Of a stretch of DNA of 6,794 nt, positions 1 through 6,193 are shown one piece after another. The translations under genes and the position numbers were made by a program. The notes under the pieces are model-generated. The model was not told where the DNA came from. It was given only the letters and a program-made list of their open reading frames with translations, and made no database searches. Source of the stretch: Sphingomonas bacterium (GTDB lineage: Bacteria; Pseudomonadota; Alphaproteobacteria; Sphingomonadales; Sphingomonadaceae); contig JAJAYY010000217.1 of assembly GCA_026785965.1 (NCBI GenBank), forward strand, positions 1 through 6,794. Reading direction: 5' to 3'. Position 1 is the first letter of the stretch. Every line of letters starts with the position of its first letter.

Positions 1-297
1 ACTTTCCGGATCATCTATGGCGACGAGGCACCCCACCGCGGCTGCTTCGGCAATCTTGCCTTCGCGCTGGCACCGCATGGCGTGACCGAGGACATGATCC
101 CGACCGCATTCAACGTCTTCATGAACGTGCCGGTCGATGGCGAGACCGGCGCGCTGCGGGTTGATCCGCCGCTGAGCAAGGCCGGCGACCGGATCATGTT
201 CGAGGCGCGCATGGATTTGATCATCGGGCTGACCGCTTGCTCGGCGCTGCAATCGAACAACAACCGCTTCAAGCCGATCCACTGGACCATCGATTGA
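1..297 (+). CDS. DUF1989 / urea carboxylase-associated family protein, C-terminal part (5' end outside window)
   Basis: The first 98 in-frame residues from base 1 to the TGA at 295-297 look like the C-terminal half of a DUF1989 (urea carboxylase-associated, UAAP-type) protein. Visible family-like patterns are HRGCFGNLAFAL (residues 12-23, with a Cys that is often conserved), IPTAFNVFMNV (33-43), LSKAGDRI, and the tail DLIIGLTACSA followed by SNNNRFKPI. Family members are cytoplasmic and probably metal-binding. They occur beside urea carboxylase or amino-acid catabolism genes, but their exact biochemical role is not settled. No start is in the window; the GTG at 82 is an internal codon. The next gene overlaps its stop, so the two are probably co-transcribed. 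The family call is from remembered motifs and the substrate cannot be assigned. Confidence 0.8.
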   Translation, partial: TFRIIYGDEAPHRGCFGNLAFALAPHGVTEDMIPTAFNVFMNVPVDGETGALRVDPPLSKAGDRIMFEARMDLIIGLTACSALQSNNNRFKPIHWTID

Positions 298-1148
298 GCG
301 CGCTGGCGACGGCGCGGGTGGCGTTGGCTTATTTGTGGCGGCACCGGCGCTGGCCGGCGCTGTCGTCGCCGCAGCGGTTCACCGAATGGGTCCAGTGGCG
401 CAAGCTCAACGACCGCGACCGCGACCGCGCGCGGCTGACCGACAAGGCGCTTTCGAAGCAGCTCGCCGCGCAGGCACTGGGCGACGAGTTCATCATTCCG
501 ACGCTGTGGGAAGGCCAGGTGCTGCCCGCCGACCCGCCGTGGCCGATGCCGTTCATGGTCAAGGCCAATCACGGCTGCGGCCACTATGTCGTGGTGCGCG
601 ACGCGGCGGATTATGCCCGCGCCCGCCGCGATGCTCCGGCGTGGCTTGAGCGCGCTTACGGGGGCTGGCTCGACGAATGGCATTATCGCGCCGCGCGGCG
701 CTCGATCCTGGTCGAACCCTATATCGGGGCGGGCGATGTCCTGCCGCTCGATTACAAGATTTATGTGTTCGGCGGACGCGCGGCGATGGTCCAGCTGCAT
801 GAAGGGCGCGCCGCCGCGCATCGCTGGCACCAATATGACCGCCAGTGGCAGCCGCTGTCGCGTCACGCCGGCGCGGCCCCGCCGCCAGTGTCGCTCGAAG
901 CGATGCTCGCCGCCGCAGAGACGCTGGGCGCGGGTCATGATTTTGTGAGGGTCGATTTCTACGAGCTTGGCGGCCGTCCCGTATTTAGCGAATTCTGCTT
1001 GTTCCCCGGCTCCGGGCTCGATCCGTTCGACCCGGTCGGGCTTGACCAATGGCTTGGCACTTTATGGACCGCTCAACGCGGGACGCGACCGGCTCAAGCG
1101 GACCAATGGAATGTGCCCGGGGTTGCGGAAACGCTGCGGACCTGCTGA
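294..1148 (+). CDS. ATP-grasp fold / TupA-like protein (probable amidoligase family)
   Basis: This is a 284-residue protein if it starts at the TTG at 294, which overlaps the upstream TGA (TTGA). A GTG at 318 is an alternative; neither has a clear Shine-Dalgarno sequence. The pattern is that of TupA-like ATP-grasp proteins: an N-terminal RFTEWVQWRKLNDRD block (residues 28-42), LTDK (48-51), FMVKANHGCG (87-96, nucleotide-binding Lys plus Gly-rich loop), EWHYR (128-132), ILVEPYIG (138-145), LDYKIYVFGG (152-161), and FVRVDFYE with FSEFCLFPGSG (217-241, probable Mg/ATP acidic residues D221 and E233). Relatives are linked to cell-wall polymer (teichuronopeptide) or polysaccharide synthesis and would ligate a carboxylate using ATP. 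No signal peptide or membrane segment is apparent, so it is likely cytoplasmic. The substrate is unknown. The stop lies 8 bases before the chosen hisN start. Confidence 0.78.
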   Translation: MSALATARVALAYLWRHRRWPALSSPQRFTEWVQWRKLNDRDRDRARLTDKALSKQLAAQALGDEFIIPTLWEGQVLPADPPWPMPFMVKANHGCGHYVVVRDAADYARARRDAPAWLERAYGGWLDEWHYRAARRSILVEPYIGAGDVLPLDYKIYVFGGRAAMVQLHEGRAAAHRWHQYDRQWQPLSRHAGAAPPPVSLEAMLAAAETLGAGHDFVRVDFYELGGRPVFSEFCLFPGSGLDPFDPVGLDQWLGTLWTAQRGTRPAQADQWNVPGVAETLRTC

Positions 1149-1156
1149 TCAAAAGC

Positions 1157-1912
1157 GTGGATCCGGCATTTTTCTTGAAGCTATCAAGCGTCGCCCGGCG
1201 CGCCATCGAAGCCGAGCTTACGGGCGGGCTGGTGACCGAGAACAAGGCCGCTTCGGGCTTTGACCCGGTGACCACGGCCGATCGCGCCGCCGAGCGCGCG
1301 CTGCGCGCGCTGATCGAGCAGCATTATCCCGACCATGGCATCTGGGGCGAGGAATATGGCCTGACGCGCGGCGCTTCCCCGATCCGCTGGAGCCTCGATC
1401 CGGTTGACGGAACCCGCGCCTTGATCTGCGGGCTGCCGAGCTGGGCGATCCTGGTCGGGCTGATCGAGGATGGTCGCCACGTCGCGGGGATGATCGATCT
1501 TCCGGCGCTGAGCGAAACGCTGATCGGGCACGGCGGGGTGACCACGCGCAACGGCGCGATCATGCGGACCAGCAGCTGCGCGTTGCTGAGCGAGGCGCGG
1601 CTGGCGACGACCGACGCGAGCCTGTTCAGCGCGAGCGAAGCGGCGGGGTTCGAGCGCGTGCGTCAGGCCGCGCGCGTGACGCGCTTCGGGCTCGATGCAT
1701 TGGGCTATGCGCGGATCGCGACGGGCGACATCGACCTGGTGATCGAAAGCGGGCTCAAGCCGCACGATTATGACGCGTTGGTGGCGGTGGTGCGCGGCGC
1801 GGGGGGCGTGATCGGCAATTGGAGCGGCGGAGCCGAGCTTGGCGGTGGCGACGTGGTCGCGGCAGCGAGCCAGCCACTCTACGACGAAGCGGTCGCCTTG
1901 CTCGCGTCATGA
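1157..1912 (+). CDS. hisN: Histidinol-phosphate phosphatase, HisN type (inositol monophosphatase fold)
   Basis: The likely role is hydrolysis of L-histidinol phosphate to histidinol plus phosphate, step 8 of histidine synthesis, in the cytoplasm and Mg-dependent. The metal-site motifs of the inositol monophosphatase superfamily are present: GEEYG (residues 64-68), LDPVDGTR (80-87) and a late Asp in LKPHDYDAL (200-208). The LKPxD form, in place of the generic WD, is characteristic of HisN rather than inositol phosphatases or CysQ. From the GTG at 1157 the protein has 251 residues, normal for the family, and begins right before the first helix. ATG codons at 1049, 1064 and 1106 are in frame but extend into the upstream gene; none has a good ribosome site, so the start is uncertain. 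The gene lies convergent to the his operon, whose HisB lacks a phosphatase domain. This supports the substrate call. Confidence 0.85.
   Translation: MDPAFFLKLSSVARRAIEAELTGGLVTENKAASGFDPVTTADRAAERALRALIEQHYPDHGIWGEEYGLTRGASPIRWSLDPVDGTRALICGLPSWAILVGLIEDGRHVAGMIDLPALSETLIGHGGVTTRNGAIMRTSSCALLSEARLATTDASLFSASEAAGFERVRQAARVTRFGLDALGYARIATGDIDLVIESGLKPHDYDALVAVVRGAGGVIGNWSGGAELGGGDVVAAASQPLYDEAVALLAS
1879..1912. other. Tail-to-tail coding overlap of hisN and hisIE (34 bases)
   Basis: The hisN stop (TGA 1910-1912, plus strand) lies inside hisIE, and the hisIE stop (TAG, complement of 1879-1881) lies inside hisN. The last residues of both proteins are therefore encoded by the same 34 base pairs on opposite strands. 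No intergenic space exists for a classic terminator with a T-tract for either unit, and I see none nearby. Confidence 0.9.
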
Positions 1913-2508
1913 CGGCGCTTGAGTTCCGTGATCACGGCGCCCCATGACGAATCGCTTGCCTCGAGCAAGACGGTCAAATGGTAGACCAGGTCGGCTGCCT
2001 CCGCGGTGAGTTCGGCGGCGTCGTCGCTGGTCGCGGCAAGCGCGACTTCGACGCCTTCTTCGCCGACTTTCTGAGCGAGCCGTTTGACCCCTTCGCCGAT
2101 CAGCCGCGCGGTGTAGCTGGTCGCGGGGTCGGCAGCTGCGCGGCTAGCGACGGTGGCGGCGAGGGTGGCGACGAAGCCGGTCCCGAGGGCTCCGTCGGCC
2201 CCGAAACAGCTGTCGCTTCCGGTGTGGCAGGTCGGGCCGCGCGGGGTGGCGAGGACCAGCAAGGCATCGCGGTCGCAATCGAGCCGCACATCGACGAGGT
2301 CGAGCAGATTGCCGCTGGTTTCGCCCTTGCGCCACGGCGCTGAGCGCGAGCGGCTGTGAAACGTCACCAGCCGGTCGGTGATGGTCGCGTCGAGCGCGGC
2401 GCGATCCATGTAGCCGAGCATCCGCACTTCGCCCGAGGCGGCATGCTGGACGATCGCCGGAATGAGCCCGTCCATCTTGGCCCAGTCGATCGTGTCGGGG
2501 TCGATCAT
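1879..2508 (-). CDS. hisIE: Bifunctional PR-AMP cyclohydrolase / PR-ATP pyrophosphatase
   Basis: This 209-residue fusion catalyses steps 2 and 3 of histidine synthesis: PR-ATP to PR-AMP (HisE domain), then ring opening to ProFAR (HisI domain). The HisI domain spans about residues 1-115, with GEVRMLGYM (26-34), WRKGETSGN (59-67), the DCDRD metal site (77-81) and the zinc cysteines in [12 protein letters not shown] (C94, C101). The HisE domain spans about 128-201, with [16 protein letters not shown] (140-155) and [13 protein letters not shown] (166-178). The ATG at 2508 overlaps the hisF TGA (ATGA) and is preceded by a strong GGAGGT. An upstream in-frame extension to 2904 is just antisense-free read-through of hisF and is not used. 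The gene is last in the operon and its 3' end overlaps hisN. HisI-HisE fusion and this residue pattern are typical of gammaproteobacteria; most alphaproteobacteria have separate hisI and hisE. Confidence 0.97.
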
Positions 2509-3272
2509 CGGCGCACCTCCAGGCCTTGCTCGGCGAGATAGTCTTTCAGGTCCGGAATCGCGATCCGGCGGTCGTGGAACACGCTTGCGGCGAGCGCACC
2601 GCTCGCCCCTGCCGCAAAGGCTTCGGCGAAATGAGCAAGCGTCCCCGCGCCGCCCGAAGCGATGACCGGCACGTCGACCGCACTGACCAGCGCGCGCAAC
2701 TGGTCGAGGTCGTAACCCTGGCGGACGCCATCGCGGTCGATGCAGTTGAGGACAATTTCGCCCGCACCGAGCCGCGCCCCCTCGACCGCCCAGGCGATCG
2801 TTTCGCGCCCTGTATCCTGGGTCGCTTCGGGTCGGCCAGTATATTGCTTGACCGTCAGGCGGCCGTCGCTTGCCCGCAGGCTGTCGATGCCAAGCACGAC
2901 GCATTGCCGCCCGAATGCATCGGCGAGTTCGGCAATCAAGCCGGGGCGGACCAGCGCCGGTGAATTGACGCTAACCTTGTCGGCGCCGGCGCCAAGGCAA
3001 CGCGCTGCGGTTTCGATGTCGCCGATCCCGCCGGCGACCGAGAATGGAATGTCGATCACCGCCGACACGCGCCGGACCCAGGCGGGGTCGAGGCTGCGCC
3101 GGTCGGCGCTGGCGGTGATGTCGTAAAAGACGAGCTCGTCGGCGCCCTCGTCACGGTAGCGAAGCGCATGGTCGACGATATCGCCGATGTCGCGATGATC
3201 CTTGAACTGGACCCCCTTGACCACCCGCCCGCCGACGACGTCGAGGCAGGCAATGATCCTAGCCGCGGGCAT
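2505..3272 (-). CDS. hisF: Imidazole glycerol phosphate synthase, cyclase subunit
   Basis: This 255-residue TIM barrel uses ammonia from HisH to convert PRFAR to imidazole glycerol phosphate plus AICAR (step 5). The catalytic aspartates sit at the canonical places: D11 in IACLDV and D130 in VLGIDS. Phosphate-binding and barrel motifs are FYDITAS (49-55), FSVAGGI (77-83), ADKVSVNS (97-104), NCIDRDG and IASGGAGT. Length is standard (about 255). The ATG at 3272 overlaps the end of hisA by 14 bases and is preceded by GAAGGGG on the minus strand. The stop shares an ATGA with hisIE. The protein should form the HisH-HisF heterodimer with the gene product two positions upstream. Family assignment is secure. 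Confidence 0.98.
2515..2520 (-). promoter_or_regulatory. Strong ribosome binding site for hisIE
   Basis: The minus strand reads GGAGGT, then six bases, then the ATG at 2508. The site is embedded in the last codons of hisF. It fixes the hisIE start and rules out the longer upstream frame. Confidence 0.85.
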
Positions 3273-3987
3273 GAGCGACCCCTTCGGCGACGGTGAAGCG
3301 CCGTTCCCAGATCGCCTTGCCGACGATCGCGCGCGCCGCGCCAGTGGCGCGCAGGGCAGCGAGGTCGTCGAGGGTGGCGACGCCCCCCGAGACCTGCAAT
3401 TCGACACTAGGAAATTCGCTCATTACCGAGGTCATCAGTGCGACATTGGGACCGCTGAGCATACCGTCCGTGACAATGTCGGTGACGAGCAAGTGACGCA
3501 CCGTGGGGAACTGCCTGAGCACTTCGCCGAGTGTGCGCCCCGAGCCGACCTTCCAGCCATGAACTGCGACCATCGCCGCGCCGCCTTCGAGCCGTACGTC
3601 GAGCGCGAGCGTCAGGCGGTCGGATCCAAATCGGTCGAGCAGCGCGGCAAAGGCGGCGGGATCGGCTAAAGCGAGGCTGCCGATAACGACCCGCGAAACG
3701 CCGCAATCGAGGACCGCCGCAACCTGTTCGGCGGTGCGGAAGCCACCCGCGACCTGAAGATTGAGGGCGGACGATTGGGCAAGCGCCACGAACAGATCAT
3801 GCTGGCGCGGCGATCCGGCGCGGGCGCCGTCGAGATCTACCAGATGCGCTTCGGCGGCGCCGCCACTGGCGAAGTCGGCGAGCGCTGCGGCGGGATCGTC
3901 CGAATAGACCGTCTCGCGCGCGAAATCGCCCTGCGCCAGACGCACGCAGCGGCCGCCGATAAGATCGATTGCGGGGAGCAGTTTCAT
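3259..3987 (-). CDS. hisA: ProFAR isomerase (phosphoribosylformimino-AICAR-P isomerase)
   Basis: This 242-residue TIM-barrel enzyme catalyses step 4, the Amadori rearrangement of ProFAR to PRFAR. Key positions are D8 in LPAIDLI (general base) and D130 in TLALDVR, with further motifs HLVDLDGA (48-55), VAGGFRT (79-85), VVIGSLA (100-106), [13 protein letters not shown] and VSGGV near the C-terminal phosphate site. The [13 protein letters not shown] and VHGW pattern resembles gammaproteobacterial HisA as I remember it. The ATG at 3987 overlaps the hisH stop (ATGA). No good Shine-Dalgarno precedes it, so translation is probably coupled to hisH. The 3' end overlaps hisF by 14 bases. In-frame sequence extending back to 4695 lies over hisH and hisCB and is not part of the gene. 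Confidence 0.97.
3279..3285 (-). promoter_or_regulatory. Ribosome binding site for hisF
   Basis: The minus strand reads GAAGGGG, six bases before the ATG at 3272, and lies within hisA coding sequence. It supports the start that gives D11 its canonical numbering. Confidence 0.7.
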
Positions 3988-4565
3988 GCGCCGAGAAATG
4001 CCTGCAGAAACCGCGCACCAGCCGCCGACGAACGTTCGGGATGGAATTGCGCACCCCACAGATTGCCGTGACGGATGGCCGCCGGGATCGGCCGCCCATA
4101 GCATGCGCGGGCAACGGTGGCGGGACCATCGTCGCAGGCGAAGCTGTGCGCGAAATAGACATAATCGCCCGCCGCGAGGCCGACCCCTCGCGCTTCGTCG
4201 ATTCGAGTCCAACCCATGTGCGGAACCGGTCGTCCAGGCGCCGGATCGAGTGCGCCCACCCGGCCGTGGACGAGGCCGAGCAGCGCGGTGTTGCCTTCGT
4301 CCGACGACTCGAACATCATCTGCATGCCAAGGCAGATGCCGAGCAATGGGGCGGTGCGGCGCTTGAGCATGGCGACCAGTCCGCGATCGTGTAGCCGGGC
4401 CATTGCAAATCCCGCCGCTCCGACGCCGGGCAGCACCAACCGCTCGCTGGCTTCGGCAACCGCAGGTTCGGCGGTCAGCACGGCTTCGACCCCGAGCCGC
4501 GCGAAGGCGAGCCGGATCGAATCGACATTGCCATAGCCAAGATCGAGGATCGCCAGCGCGGTCAC
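3984..4565 (-). CDS. hisH: Imidazole glycerol phosphate synthase, glutaminase subunit
   Basis: This 193-residue class I glutamine amidotransferase hydrolyses glutamine and passes ammonia to HisF. The triad is visible: C78 in LLGICLGMQ, and H175 and E177 in GAQFHPERS. Other family motifs are [12 protein letters not shown] (6-17), [10 protein letters not shown] (43-52) and VPHMGWTRI (114-122, the interface and oxyanion region). The start is a GTG at 4565 that overlaps the TGA of the hisCB fusion (GTGA), with AAGGG six bases upstream. No nearby ATG would keep the N-terminal strand. It works as an obligate heterodimer with HisF. It ends in an ATGA overlap with hisA. Confidence 0.97.
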
Positions 4566-6193
4566 AGCACGCCCTTGGTCGAGGGCAGCGAATCGCGCTT
4601 ACCCTCAAGCGCCACTGCGCTGCGCAGCGCCCGCCCAAATGCCTTGAAGCACGCTTCGACCTGATGATGATCGTTGTCGCCTGCGACCGAGACATGGATC
4701 GCCGCGCCCATGCTGTCGGCGAGGCTGCGGAAGATGTGTGGCACCATGTCGGTCGGCAGCCCGCCGACTGCTGCGGTCGAGAAACTGCCGTTGAACTTGG
4801 CGAACGGGCGTCCCGACAGGTCGATCAGCACTTCGGCGCGGGTCTCGTCCATCGGCAAGGCGAAGCCGAACCGCCCAATCCCGCGCTTGTCGCCGAGCGC
4901 TTGGCGCAAGCCCTGGCCAAGCGCGATCGCGACATCTTCGATGCTGTGGTGCGGATCGATGCCGAGATCACCCGAGCAAGCGAGCGTCAGGCTGAACCCG
5001 GCGTGCGCTGCGACCTGATCCAGCATGTGATCGAAGAATGGGATGCCGCTGTCGATGTGGCGCGGCTCGGCGCGGTCGAGATCGACGCTCAGCGCGATCC
5101 GGGTTTCTTTGGTGTCGCGGACGACGTCGGCGCGGCGGTTGGGCGGCGACGGCGCGCCAAGGCCGAACACCGCGAGCAAGGCGCGATTGTCGACCTCGCT
5201 GCCGACCGTCACCCGCACCCCGCCGGGAGCGGCATTGGCACGGAAGCGAACCCGCACCGCCGCCGCGGCGAGGCGCCGCGCGAGGTCGGCGGGGTCGGCG
5301 ACTTCGAGGAACAGGAAGTTGCCGCCAACCCGGATGCGCTCGATTTCGGCGACGGTTGCCAGCGCTGCGGCCAATCGATCGCGATCGGCCAGCAAGCGCG
5401 CGACGCGCTCGGCGTGGATTGGCATCCGTTCGGGTCCCAGCGCGTCGAGCGCGGCGGCAATCGACGGGGTCGGGAGCGGGTAGGGCGGGGACACCTTGGC
5501 GATCAGCTCGATGATCGACGGATCGGCTATCGCGCAGCCGATCCGCGCTCCCGCCAGACCATAAGCCTTGGACAGGGTGCGGAGCACGACCAGGTTGTCG
5601 GTGGCTTCGCTGGCGAGGCTTGGAGCGCCCGAAAACTCGCCATAAGCTTCGTCGGCGACGACCAACGTGTCGGGCAAAGCGGCGGCGATGCAGCGCACGT
5701 CAGCGGCAGCGACCGGGGTGCCGGTCGGGTTGTTCGGCGTGCACAGGAACAGCAGCTTGGGTGCCGCATCAGCCACCGCGGCAAGCACGGCATCGGCGTC
5801 GAACATCAAGCCGGCAGTGAGCCGAGCGGTGATCACGCCCGCGCCCTGCACCCGCGCGAATTGGGCATAAGCCGAGAAGGTCGGCTCGACGATCGCGATG
5901 CAATCGACCGCGGGGCGGCAAAAGGCGCGGATCAACAGGTCGATCGCATCGTCACTGCCGCGCGCGACCCACAGCGATGCTGGCGCGACGCCGTACAGAT
6001 CGGCCAGCCGTTGGCGCAGGGCAGCGGGCTGTGGTTCGGGATAGCGATTGATCCCCGTCTGGCCCGCAACGAGCGAAGCAAACGGATTTTCATTGGCATC
6101 GAGCCGGACCGTCCCCGGCAGCGGCGCGCCGGCGATGTCGGCGGGGGGCAAAGCGAGGATTTCGGGGCGGGCAAGGCGCGCGGCGAGGGTCAT
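4562..6193 (-). CDS. HisC-HisB fusion: histidinol-phosphate aminotransferase / imidazoleglycerol-phosphate dehydratase
   Basis: One uninterrupted 543-codon frame holds two complete enzymes. Residues about 1-343 are a class I/II PLP aminotransferase of the HisC family: LDANENPF (31-38), NRYPEPQP (49-56), CTPNNPTG (151-158), VADEAYGEF (179-187), the PLP lysine K209 in [14 protein letters not shown], and R327 in RVTVG. Residues about 356-543 are a complete imidazoleglycerol-phosphate dehydratase: TKETRI (361-366), [11 protein letters not shown] (383-393), DPHHSIED (413-420), [17 protein letters not shown] (434-450), [15 protein letters not shown] (507-521) and LPSTKGVL at the end. The metal-binding His/Glu residues of both HHxxE repeats are intact. 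A linker of only about 12 residues (345-356) joins them. The dehydratase makes imidazole-acetol phosphate (step 6), which the aminotransferase uses next (step 7). No HAD phosphatase domain is present. The ATG at 6193 has GGAGG upstream and overlaps the hisD stop. Confidence 0.95.
4572..4576 (-). promoter_or_regulatory. Ribosome binding site for hisH
   Basis: The minus strand reads AAGGG, six bases before the GTG start at 4565, inside the last codons of hisCB. It supports the GTG start. Confidence 0.65.

Follow-up and report, generated by a model that had tools for sequence, protein, structure and literature searches.

The window analysed here, a stretch of 6,794 nucleotides from a Sphingomonas draft genome, holds the end of a histidine biosynthesis (his) operon, which reads hisD (cut)-hisCB-hisH-hisA-hisF-hisIE on the minus strand (Table 1). 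The gene termed hisCB encodes HisC and IGP dehydratase (IGPD) in a single chain. The plus strand carries a TupA-like ORF and then a hisN-like ORF that lies tail to tail with hisIE. Relatives carry hisG close upstream, on the contig of the other his genes, whereas the draft genome of the window has it on a separate contig. The operon of the window, together with the position of hisG in relatives, leads us to read the gene order as that of E. coli, hisGDC[NB]HAF[IE], minus the HAD part.

Table 1. Positions of the his genes and of the parts of hisCB in the window
Feature	Position	Strand	Basis or remark
hisD, 3' part (cut by contig end)	6190..6792	minus	PF00815; 4-base overlap with hisCB start
hisCB (fused HisC-IGP dehydratase gene)	4562..6193	minus	543 codons plus stop
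HisC (histidinol-phosphate aminotransferase) domain, residues 1-343	5165..6193	minus	PF00155, TIGR01141, Foldseek to HisC structures
Lys209 codon (PLP-binding lysine, motif TLSK)	5567..5569	minus	Lys in 120/120 window-group proteins listed
Interdomain linker, residues 344-351	5141..5164	minus	profile boundaries
IGP dehydratase domain, hisNB type, residues 352-543	4565..5140	minus	PF00475, NF003937, tree
hisH	3984..4565	minus	TIGR01855, 171.5 bits; GTG start, 4-base overlap with hisCB stop
hisA	3259..3993	minus	PF00977; TIGR00007, 210 bits, under its cut-off of 229
hisF	2505..3272	minus	TIGR00735, 316 bits
hisIE	1879..2514	minus	NF002747, 250.8 bits
hisN-like gene (IMPase-type histidinol-phosphatase)	1049..1912	plus	PF00459; TIGR02067, 233.9 bits, cut-off 275.15

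The hisCB frame begins with an ATG at 6193 and continues unbroken to a last codon at 4565-4567 and a stop at 4562-4564. Pfam places Aminotran_1_2 at residues 45-341 and IGPD at residues 383-523, both far above their cut-offs (192 bits against 27 for PF00475). The hisC profile TIGR01141 is exceeded by a narrow margin (277.2 bits, cut-off 276.55) and the IGPD profile NF002111 by a wider one (239.1 bits, cut-off 231). An earlier note on this DNA had proposed an in-frame HisC-IGPD fusion of 543 residues, and the frame, Pfam and NCBIfam all bear this out, the minus strand being added here. The HisNB profile NF003937 gives 281 bits against a cut-off of 443 and is matched only at positions 166-355, its IGPD part; the Pfam scan found no HAD family in hisCB, which does not qualify as a HisNB. 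The HisC match runs to about residue 343 and the IGPD match starts at 352, so that the linker comprises about 8 residues; it is short and in frame, as the note had it, but not the 12 or so residues given there. The window sequence has no stop codon at the HisC/IGPD junction. Two possible internal starts at the junction, TTG 339 and GTG 342, were rejected as the source of a separate HisB because neither is preceded by a Shine-Dalgarno-like site.

Residue conservation was read from the window protein and the 119 other matches listed in the protein search, at HisC positions that we presume, from E. coli HisC, to be catalytic. All 13 residues tested in the HisC half, including Lys209, are invariant in 120/120. 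The IGPD residues tested, which belong to the metal-binding and substrate motifs, are likewise invariant in the 120 except for E450 (119/120), S538 (119) and K540 (118), which upholds the view that active-site residues are intact in both domains. The AlphaFold model of hisCB has a mean pLDDT of 80.9, with low values across residues 18-52 and the C-terminal tail, and a pTM of 0.65, at which the relative placement of the two halves is not to be trusted; it is a monomer model, as is the Brevundimonas prediction described below. In Foldseek, the best matches of the N-terminal half were the HisC structures of Klebsiella and E. coli (TMt about 0.8); the C-terminal half matched IGPDs (TMt 0.81-0.93 among the matches listed). 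None of the 51 PDB sequences matched was reported to cover both halves. From its sequence, we predict that hisCB carries out steps 7 and 6 of histidine synthesis in one chain.

A protein search at E <= 1e-3 matched 6056 proteins, the best 120 of which, the window and 119 others, were listed. All 119 are full length, at 542-553 residues, and share 76-89% identity with the query across 99% or more of its length; they include proteins of Sphingomonas jaspsi, S. mesophila and Sphingomicrobium MAGs. The database check that the note had suggested, a taxonomic search for single chains with HisC followed by IGPD, thus returned many full-length examples. Since the window is a contig from a MAG of 80% completeness, one could suspect an error of sequencing, assembly or frame; with 119 other full-length matches listed and the same frame present in single-contig genomes, the chance of such an artefact is negligible. 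The fusion is real, conserved and recurrent.

Within the window's genus, this IGPD occurs in 48 of 71 genomes; HisC and IGPD share one frame in 40 of the 41 carriers that were read at the sequence level, the frame being broken in the remaining one (G010). Some IGPD is present in 371/396 genomes of the order sample, and among 18 genomes drawn from it, the seven with this IGPD type, which represent three further genera of the family as well as family f2, all have the fusion. Of the 385 genomes in the class sample, 11 have this IGPD at E <= 1e-58: eight, the window included, have it fused to a HisC that keeps the lysine, two are Brevundimonas, and one (G1005) has an unrecognised N-terminal extension. 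The latter is a frame of 559 codons (L238), in which a hisNB-type IGPD follows an extension of 215 residues. It was rejected as a HisC fusion, as its co-linear HisC match is weak and ranks third among the real sequence and 500 shuffles (432 scored); the extension is perhaps a further decayed HisC. The phylum sample (398) yielded, as best relatives outside the Alphaproteobacteria, HAD-IGPD genes with a separate upstream hisC at 23/23 loci (L068-L090).

Among named contigs, the best 80 of 590 relatives were scanned, and HisC and IGPD were found in one frame at 12 loci. Those of the Alphaproteobacteria are a MAG labelled Brevundimonas with its lysine intact (L135), two further Brevundimonas (L144 and L145), Hellea, Robiginitomaculum (start cut by the contig) and three other MAGs. 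The non-alphaproteobacterial ones are three Bacteroidales/Rikenella MAGs and one Balneolaceae MAG, all four being MAG contigs. The Balneolaceae frame (L142:6115-7989) has about 68 residues between its matched domains, rich in repeated S-E-Q units. Several other candidates were dismissed: L098, L099, L100 and L102 are long frames around an ordinary HisB with no HisC inside, L231 and L232 have HAD-IGPD in long frames and a separate HisC, and L233 has HisC-like sequence on the opposite strand only. Proteins deposited as a "separate HisB" for Sphingomonas sediminicola, Allosphingosinicella flava and S. ginkgonis, 212-234 aa long, lie wholly within fused frames (L060, L091 and L031) and are therefore truncated models rather than unfused genes. 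A fourth, from S. lutea (P0180), matched no frame of the fetched loci. Three of the four deposited models checked are thus fragments of a fused frame, which is of importance for annotation.

In most carriers, the fused copy appears to serve as the HisC of the cell. It is the only HisC-class match in 21 of 28 carriers tested (264-315 bits, the next at most 114 bits). A second HisC is present in G037 and G050 (294 and 289 bits), and the remaining five are Brevundimonas, each with a separate HisC. The window's own genome is weaker evidence on this point, being only 80% complete. The same comparison extends to genomes that have no IGPD, which make up 23/71 of the genus (16/53 of those of high quality): all five tested lack hisG as well as any HisC-class match above 111 bits, and the histidine pathway therefore seems to have been lost in part of the genus.

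A chain without the HAD domain requires another source for step 8. The best match to IMPase-type HisN scores at least 216 bits in 26 of the 28 carriers, the exceptions being G037 (166 bits) and G044 (185 bits). Corresponding scores are 153-188 bits in seven hisNB genomes (the HAD was read in six, and G648 was assigned by frame length only) and 150-174 bits in the five genomes without IGPD and pathway. Brevundimonas, with five genomes, is alone among carriers in exceeding the TIGR02067 cut-off; the window HisN, which falls short of that curated score, is the higher of the two matches in its genome. HisN adjoins hisIE in the window, G169 and L138; in G037 the operon itself contains a HisN-like gene, with hisD on one side and hisCB on the other (L227:7680-8498). 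On these scores and positions, HisN has likely, though not provenly, replaced the HAD phosphatase as the source of step 8. The called start of hisN, at 1049, falls within the TupA-like ORF, whereas the HisN match does not begin until 1166; the true start of hisN may therefore lie further inside. The TupA-like ORF, of the ATP-grasp type (237-1148), and a DUF1989 fragment are the neighbors of hisN at window positions 1-1148.

Brevundimonas has the same architecture with an altered aminotransferase half. The protein of genome G458 was matched in 112 of 121 Brevundimonas genomes, 102 of the matches spanning residues 1-4 to 467 and the rest being fragments or weak. Among 120 Brevundimonas proteins listed, the position of Lys209 is occupied by Leu in 119 and Met in one, and thus none has the PLP lysine; it is Leu in 30/30 Brevundimonas genome loci. 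The same 120 proteins have Thr or Ser in place of Asp81, Pro in place of Asn292 and no Tyr at position 184. The asparagine of the PNNPTG motif is a gap in every one; in another alignment, four rows have S, A or T there. Arg217 is conserved in 120 of them and Arg327 in 101; for the IGPD residues the count is 119-120. A separate HisC of the ordinary alphaproteobacterial type is present in 5/5 Brevundimonas genomes (296-312 bits).

The dead domain nonetheless looks constrained. Its median omega in Brevundimonas is 0.34 versus 0.13 for the IGPD, compared to 0.34 for the live HisC versus 0.21 for the IGPD in the window's group (NG86; 434/435 Brevundimonas pairs and 413/620 computable sphingomonad pairs), values which are overstated since third positions are saturated. 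In the 12 closest Brevundimonas pairs, omega of the dead domain is 0.04-0.28. Its predicted fold is HisC-like (pLDDT 83.6, TMt 0.67-0.70 to enterobacterial HisC). The Brevundimonas HisC branch is very long, at 2.7 changes per column, which makes its place in the HisC tree unsure; this length fits a loss of catalytic constraint. The Brevundimonas HisC half thus has, by its sequence, the appearance of a pseudoenzyme under constraint, and it may have a structural or scaffold role.

Histidine synthesis is a textbook case for gene fusion, and hisCB adds a variant to the his gene fusions already known, one whose dead-enzyme branch is informative. Its closest counterpart is HisNB (NF003937; E. coli hisB), which has the same IGPD subtype as C-terminal half and the same place in the operon, but the N-terminal part there is the HAD phosphatase of step 8, whereas in hisCB it is the HisC of step 7. 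The HisC half resembles standalone HisC (TIGR01141; E. coli HisC, PDB 1fg3) in being a complete domain above cut-off with 13/13 tested residues, and differs in being joined to IGPD at its C-terminus and, in Brevundimonas, dead by sequence. Standalone alphaproteobacterial IGPD shares the fold and, by family, the reaction; however, at the loci listed it has only 43-51% identity to the window IGPD (160-185 bits), and it occupies a separate tree branch. The fusions hisIE, HIS7 (hisHF) and HIS4 (hisIED) also place his pathway genes in one chain, although none includes hisC in the accessible parts of the 2007 survey (PMC1963479), and in hisCB an existing fusion partner, the HAD, is replaced. The parts available of the 2023 review (PMC10138114) likewise do not have hisC among fused his genes. 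PMC8305728, in the portion available, reports hisNB in all Bacteroidetes studied; the available text of PMC5764234 mentions five gap candidates fused to other enzymes without their identities; and hisC-hisB of C. glutamicum, as presented in part of PMC6432763, is an operon of separate genes and not a fusion. In line with the earlier note, to which the fusion was not known as a described type, no hisC-hisB fusion is named in the accessible text of the his-fusion literature searched (including PMC1963479, PMC8305728, PMC10138114 and PMC11535334), a coverage that leaves out most subscription journals. Source annotations already give a combined name to some of these proteins, so the architecture is visible in databases while being undescribed as far as that literature goes.

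Trees were built for IGPD (75 rows), HisC (73 rows) and HisH (73 rows, by a quick method). The HisC tree leaves out L107 and L145 under a length/score rule, as well as loci with no HisC on the fetched stretch. Unfused hisNB-type rows came from 27 hand-picked loci (20 gammaproteobacterial, 7 Bacteroidota/Balneolota), other fetched hisNB loci being excluded; two of the seven, L198 and L205, lack a recognisable HAD. The alphaproteobacterial fusions and the gammaproteobacterial hisNB operon genes form one group in both the IGPD (99/96) and the HisC (100/97) trees, and both halves of these fusions are apart from ordinary alphaproteobacterial HisB and HisC. The HisH tree agrees except for L239, whose HisH groups with the ordinary alphaproteobacterial ones. 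The Bacteroidota/Balneolota fusions fall among Bacteroidota/Balneolota hisB. AU tests, with groups named from architecture after the first trees were known, rejected a single clade of all fusions (p-AU 8e-5 for IGPD, 1e-11 for HisC) and a single clade of the four Bacteroidota/Balneolota fusions (p 0.02 and 5e-6), and the latter may therefore reflect more than one event. A clade of all alphaproteobacterial fusions has an IGPD support of 57/34, and for HisC a p-AU of 0.04 with Brevundimonas and 0.06 without. For HisC, L095 and L139 group with gammaproteobacteria of the E. coli side (98/89); Brevundimonas, on its long branch, is placed among gammaproteobacterial rows and away from the other fusions. 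The alphaproteobacterial fusions may, on these trees, derive from one event or more.

The IGPD half is of the E. coli hisNB type, and hisCB occupies the place of hisC-hisNB minus the HAD domain. The earlier interpretation had hisCB right as a bifunctional in-frame chain but missed the tie to the known hisNB fusion. The simplest history would be that the HAD domain separating hisC from IGPD was removed on more than one occasion. In that history, a gammaproteobacterial-type hisGDC[NB]HAF[IE] operon would have been acquired, and loss of the HAD phosphatase domain between hisC and the dehydratase would have joined hisC to IGPD, leaving step 8 to the IMPase-type HisN that adjoins the operon. We consider it probable that hisCB, a 543-residue chain for steps 7 and 6, originated in this way. 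Alternatively, a hisNB-type hisB that had no HAD from the start could have fused directly with the neighboring hisC. Balneolota hisB genes of this type with short N-terminal regions and no recognisable HAD do exist (L198 and L205), and a three-domain HisC-HAD-IGPD intermediate was not found among the loci examined; however, the HAD is present in 23/23 of the nearest unfused loci examined, and the fusions nest inside the HAD-bearing group, which makes a start without HAD rather improbable. The exchange of the HAD phosphatase of hisNB for HisC, which arose separately in the Alphaproteobacteria and in Bacteroidota/Balneolota MAGs, amounts to domain replacement inside an operon.

Why the fusion persists is a separate question, for which the earlier note had raised channelling, the direct passage of imidazole-acetol phosphate from the dehydratase site to the aminotransferase site. 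The steps are consecutive, and neither active site has been lost in the window's group. Brevundimonas, however, has not given up the fused frame although its HisC half is dead (Leu at 30/30 loci), and it has a separate HisC in each of the five genomes tested. Furthermore, IGPD is described in the accessible text of PMC10978614 as an octahedral 24-mer with its N-terminal sheet at the outer surface, which also speaks against direct transfer. Because the fused frame outlives the PLP lysine in Brevundimonas, channelling is not supported as the general reason, and we regard it as unlikely. Neutral compaction, by a chance deletion in a tight operon and with no benefit from the joined chain, agrees with the compactness of the operon (4-base overlaps on either side of hisCB) and with the fusion having arisen more than once, which is what one would predict for an easy event. 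One would expect a useless domain to disappear, yet the dead HisC domain is near full length in 102 of the 112 matching Brevundimonas genomes and its omega is well under 1, so this account is also doubtful, if somewhat less so than channelling.

The remaining account is that HisC acts as an assembly module. Since the N-terminal sheet of IGPD faces outward, an N-terminal HisC can sit outside the 24-mer, and a 24-mer bearing aminotransferase domains is plausible. Octahedral symmetry has 12 two-fold axes. We tentatively propose an octahedral core of 24 IGPD domains with 12 HisC dimers on these axes, whose structural task would be important enough for the Brevundimonas HisC to have lost catalysis and become a constrained pseudoenzyme scaffold; this arrangement is possible, with odds about on a par with those of neutral compaction. 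More broadly, and as part of the reading that we hold probable, the dehydratase half would still form its usual 24-mer with the HisC domains outside, and the joined chain would be retained for the sake of assembly and a fixed stoichiometry rather than mainly for channelling, as the Brevundimonas HisC half has no PLP lysine while the fused frame and its constraint remain. Brevundimonas is a natural experiment, combining the same architecture with a dead aminotransferase and a separate HisC, that separates channelling from assembly. If HisC is indeed an assembly module, the ordinary HisC would supply step 7 in Brevundimonas, and 24 chains of 543 residues, at 110 Da per residue, would give the shell a mass near 1.4 MDa.
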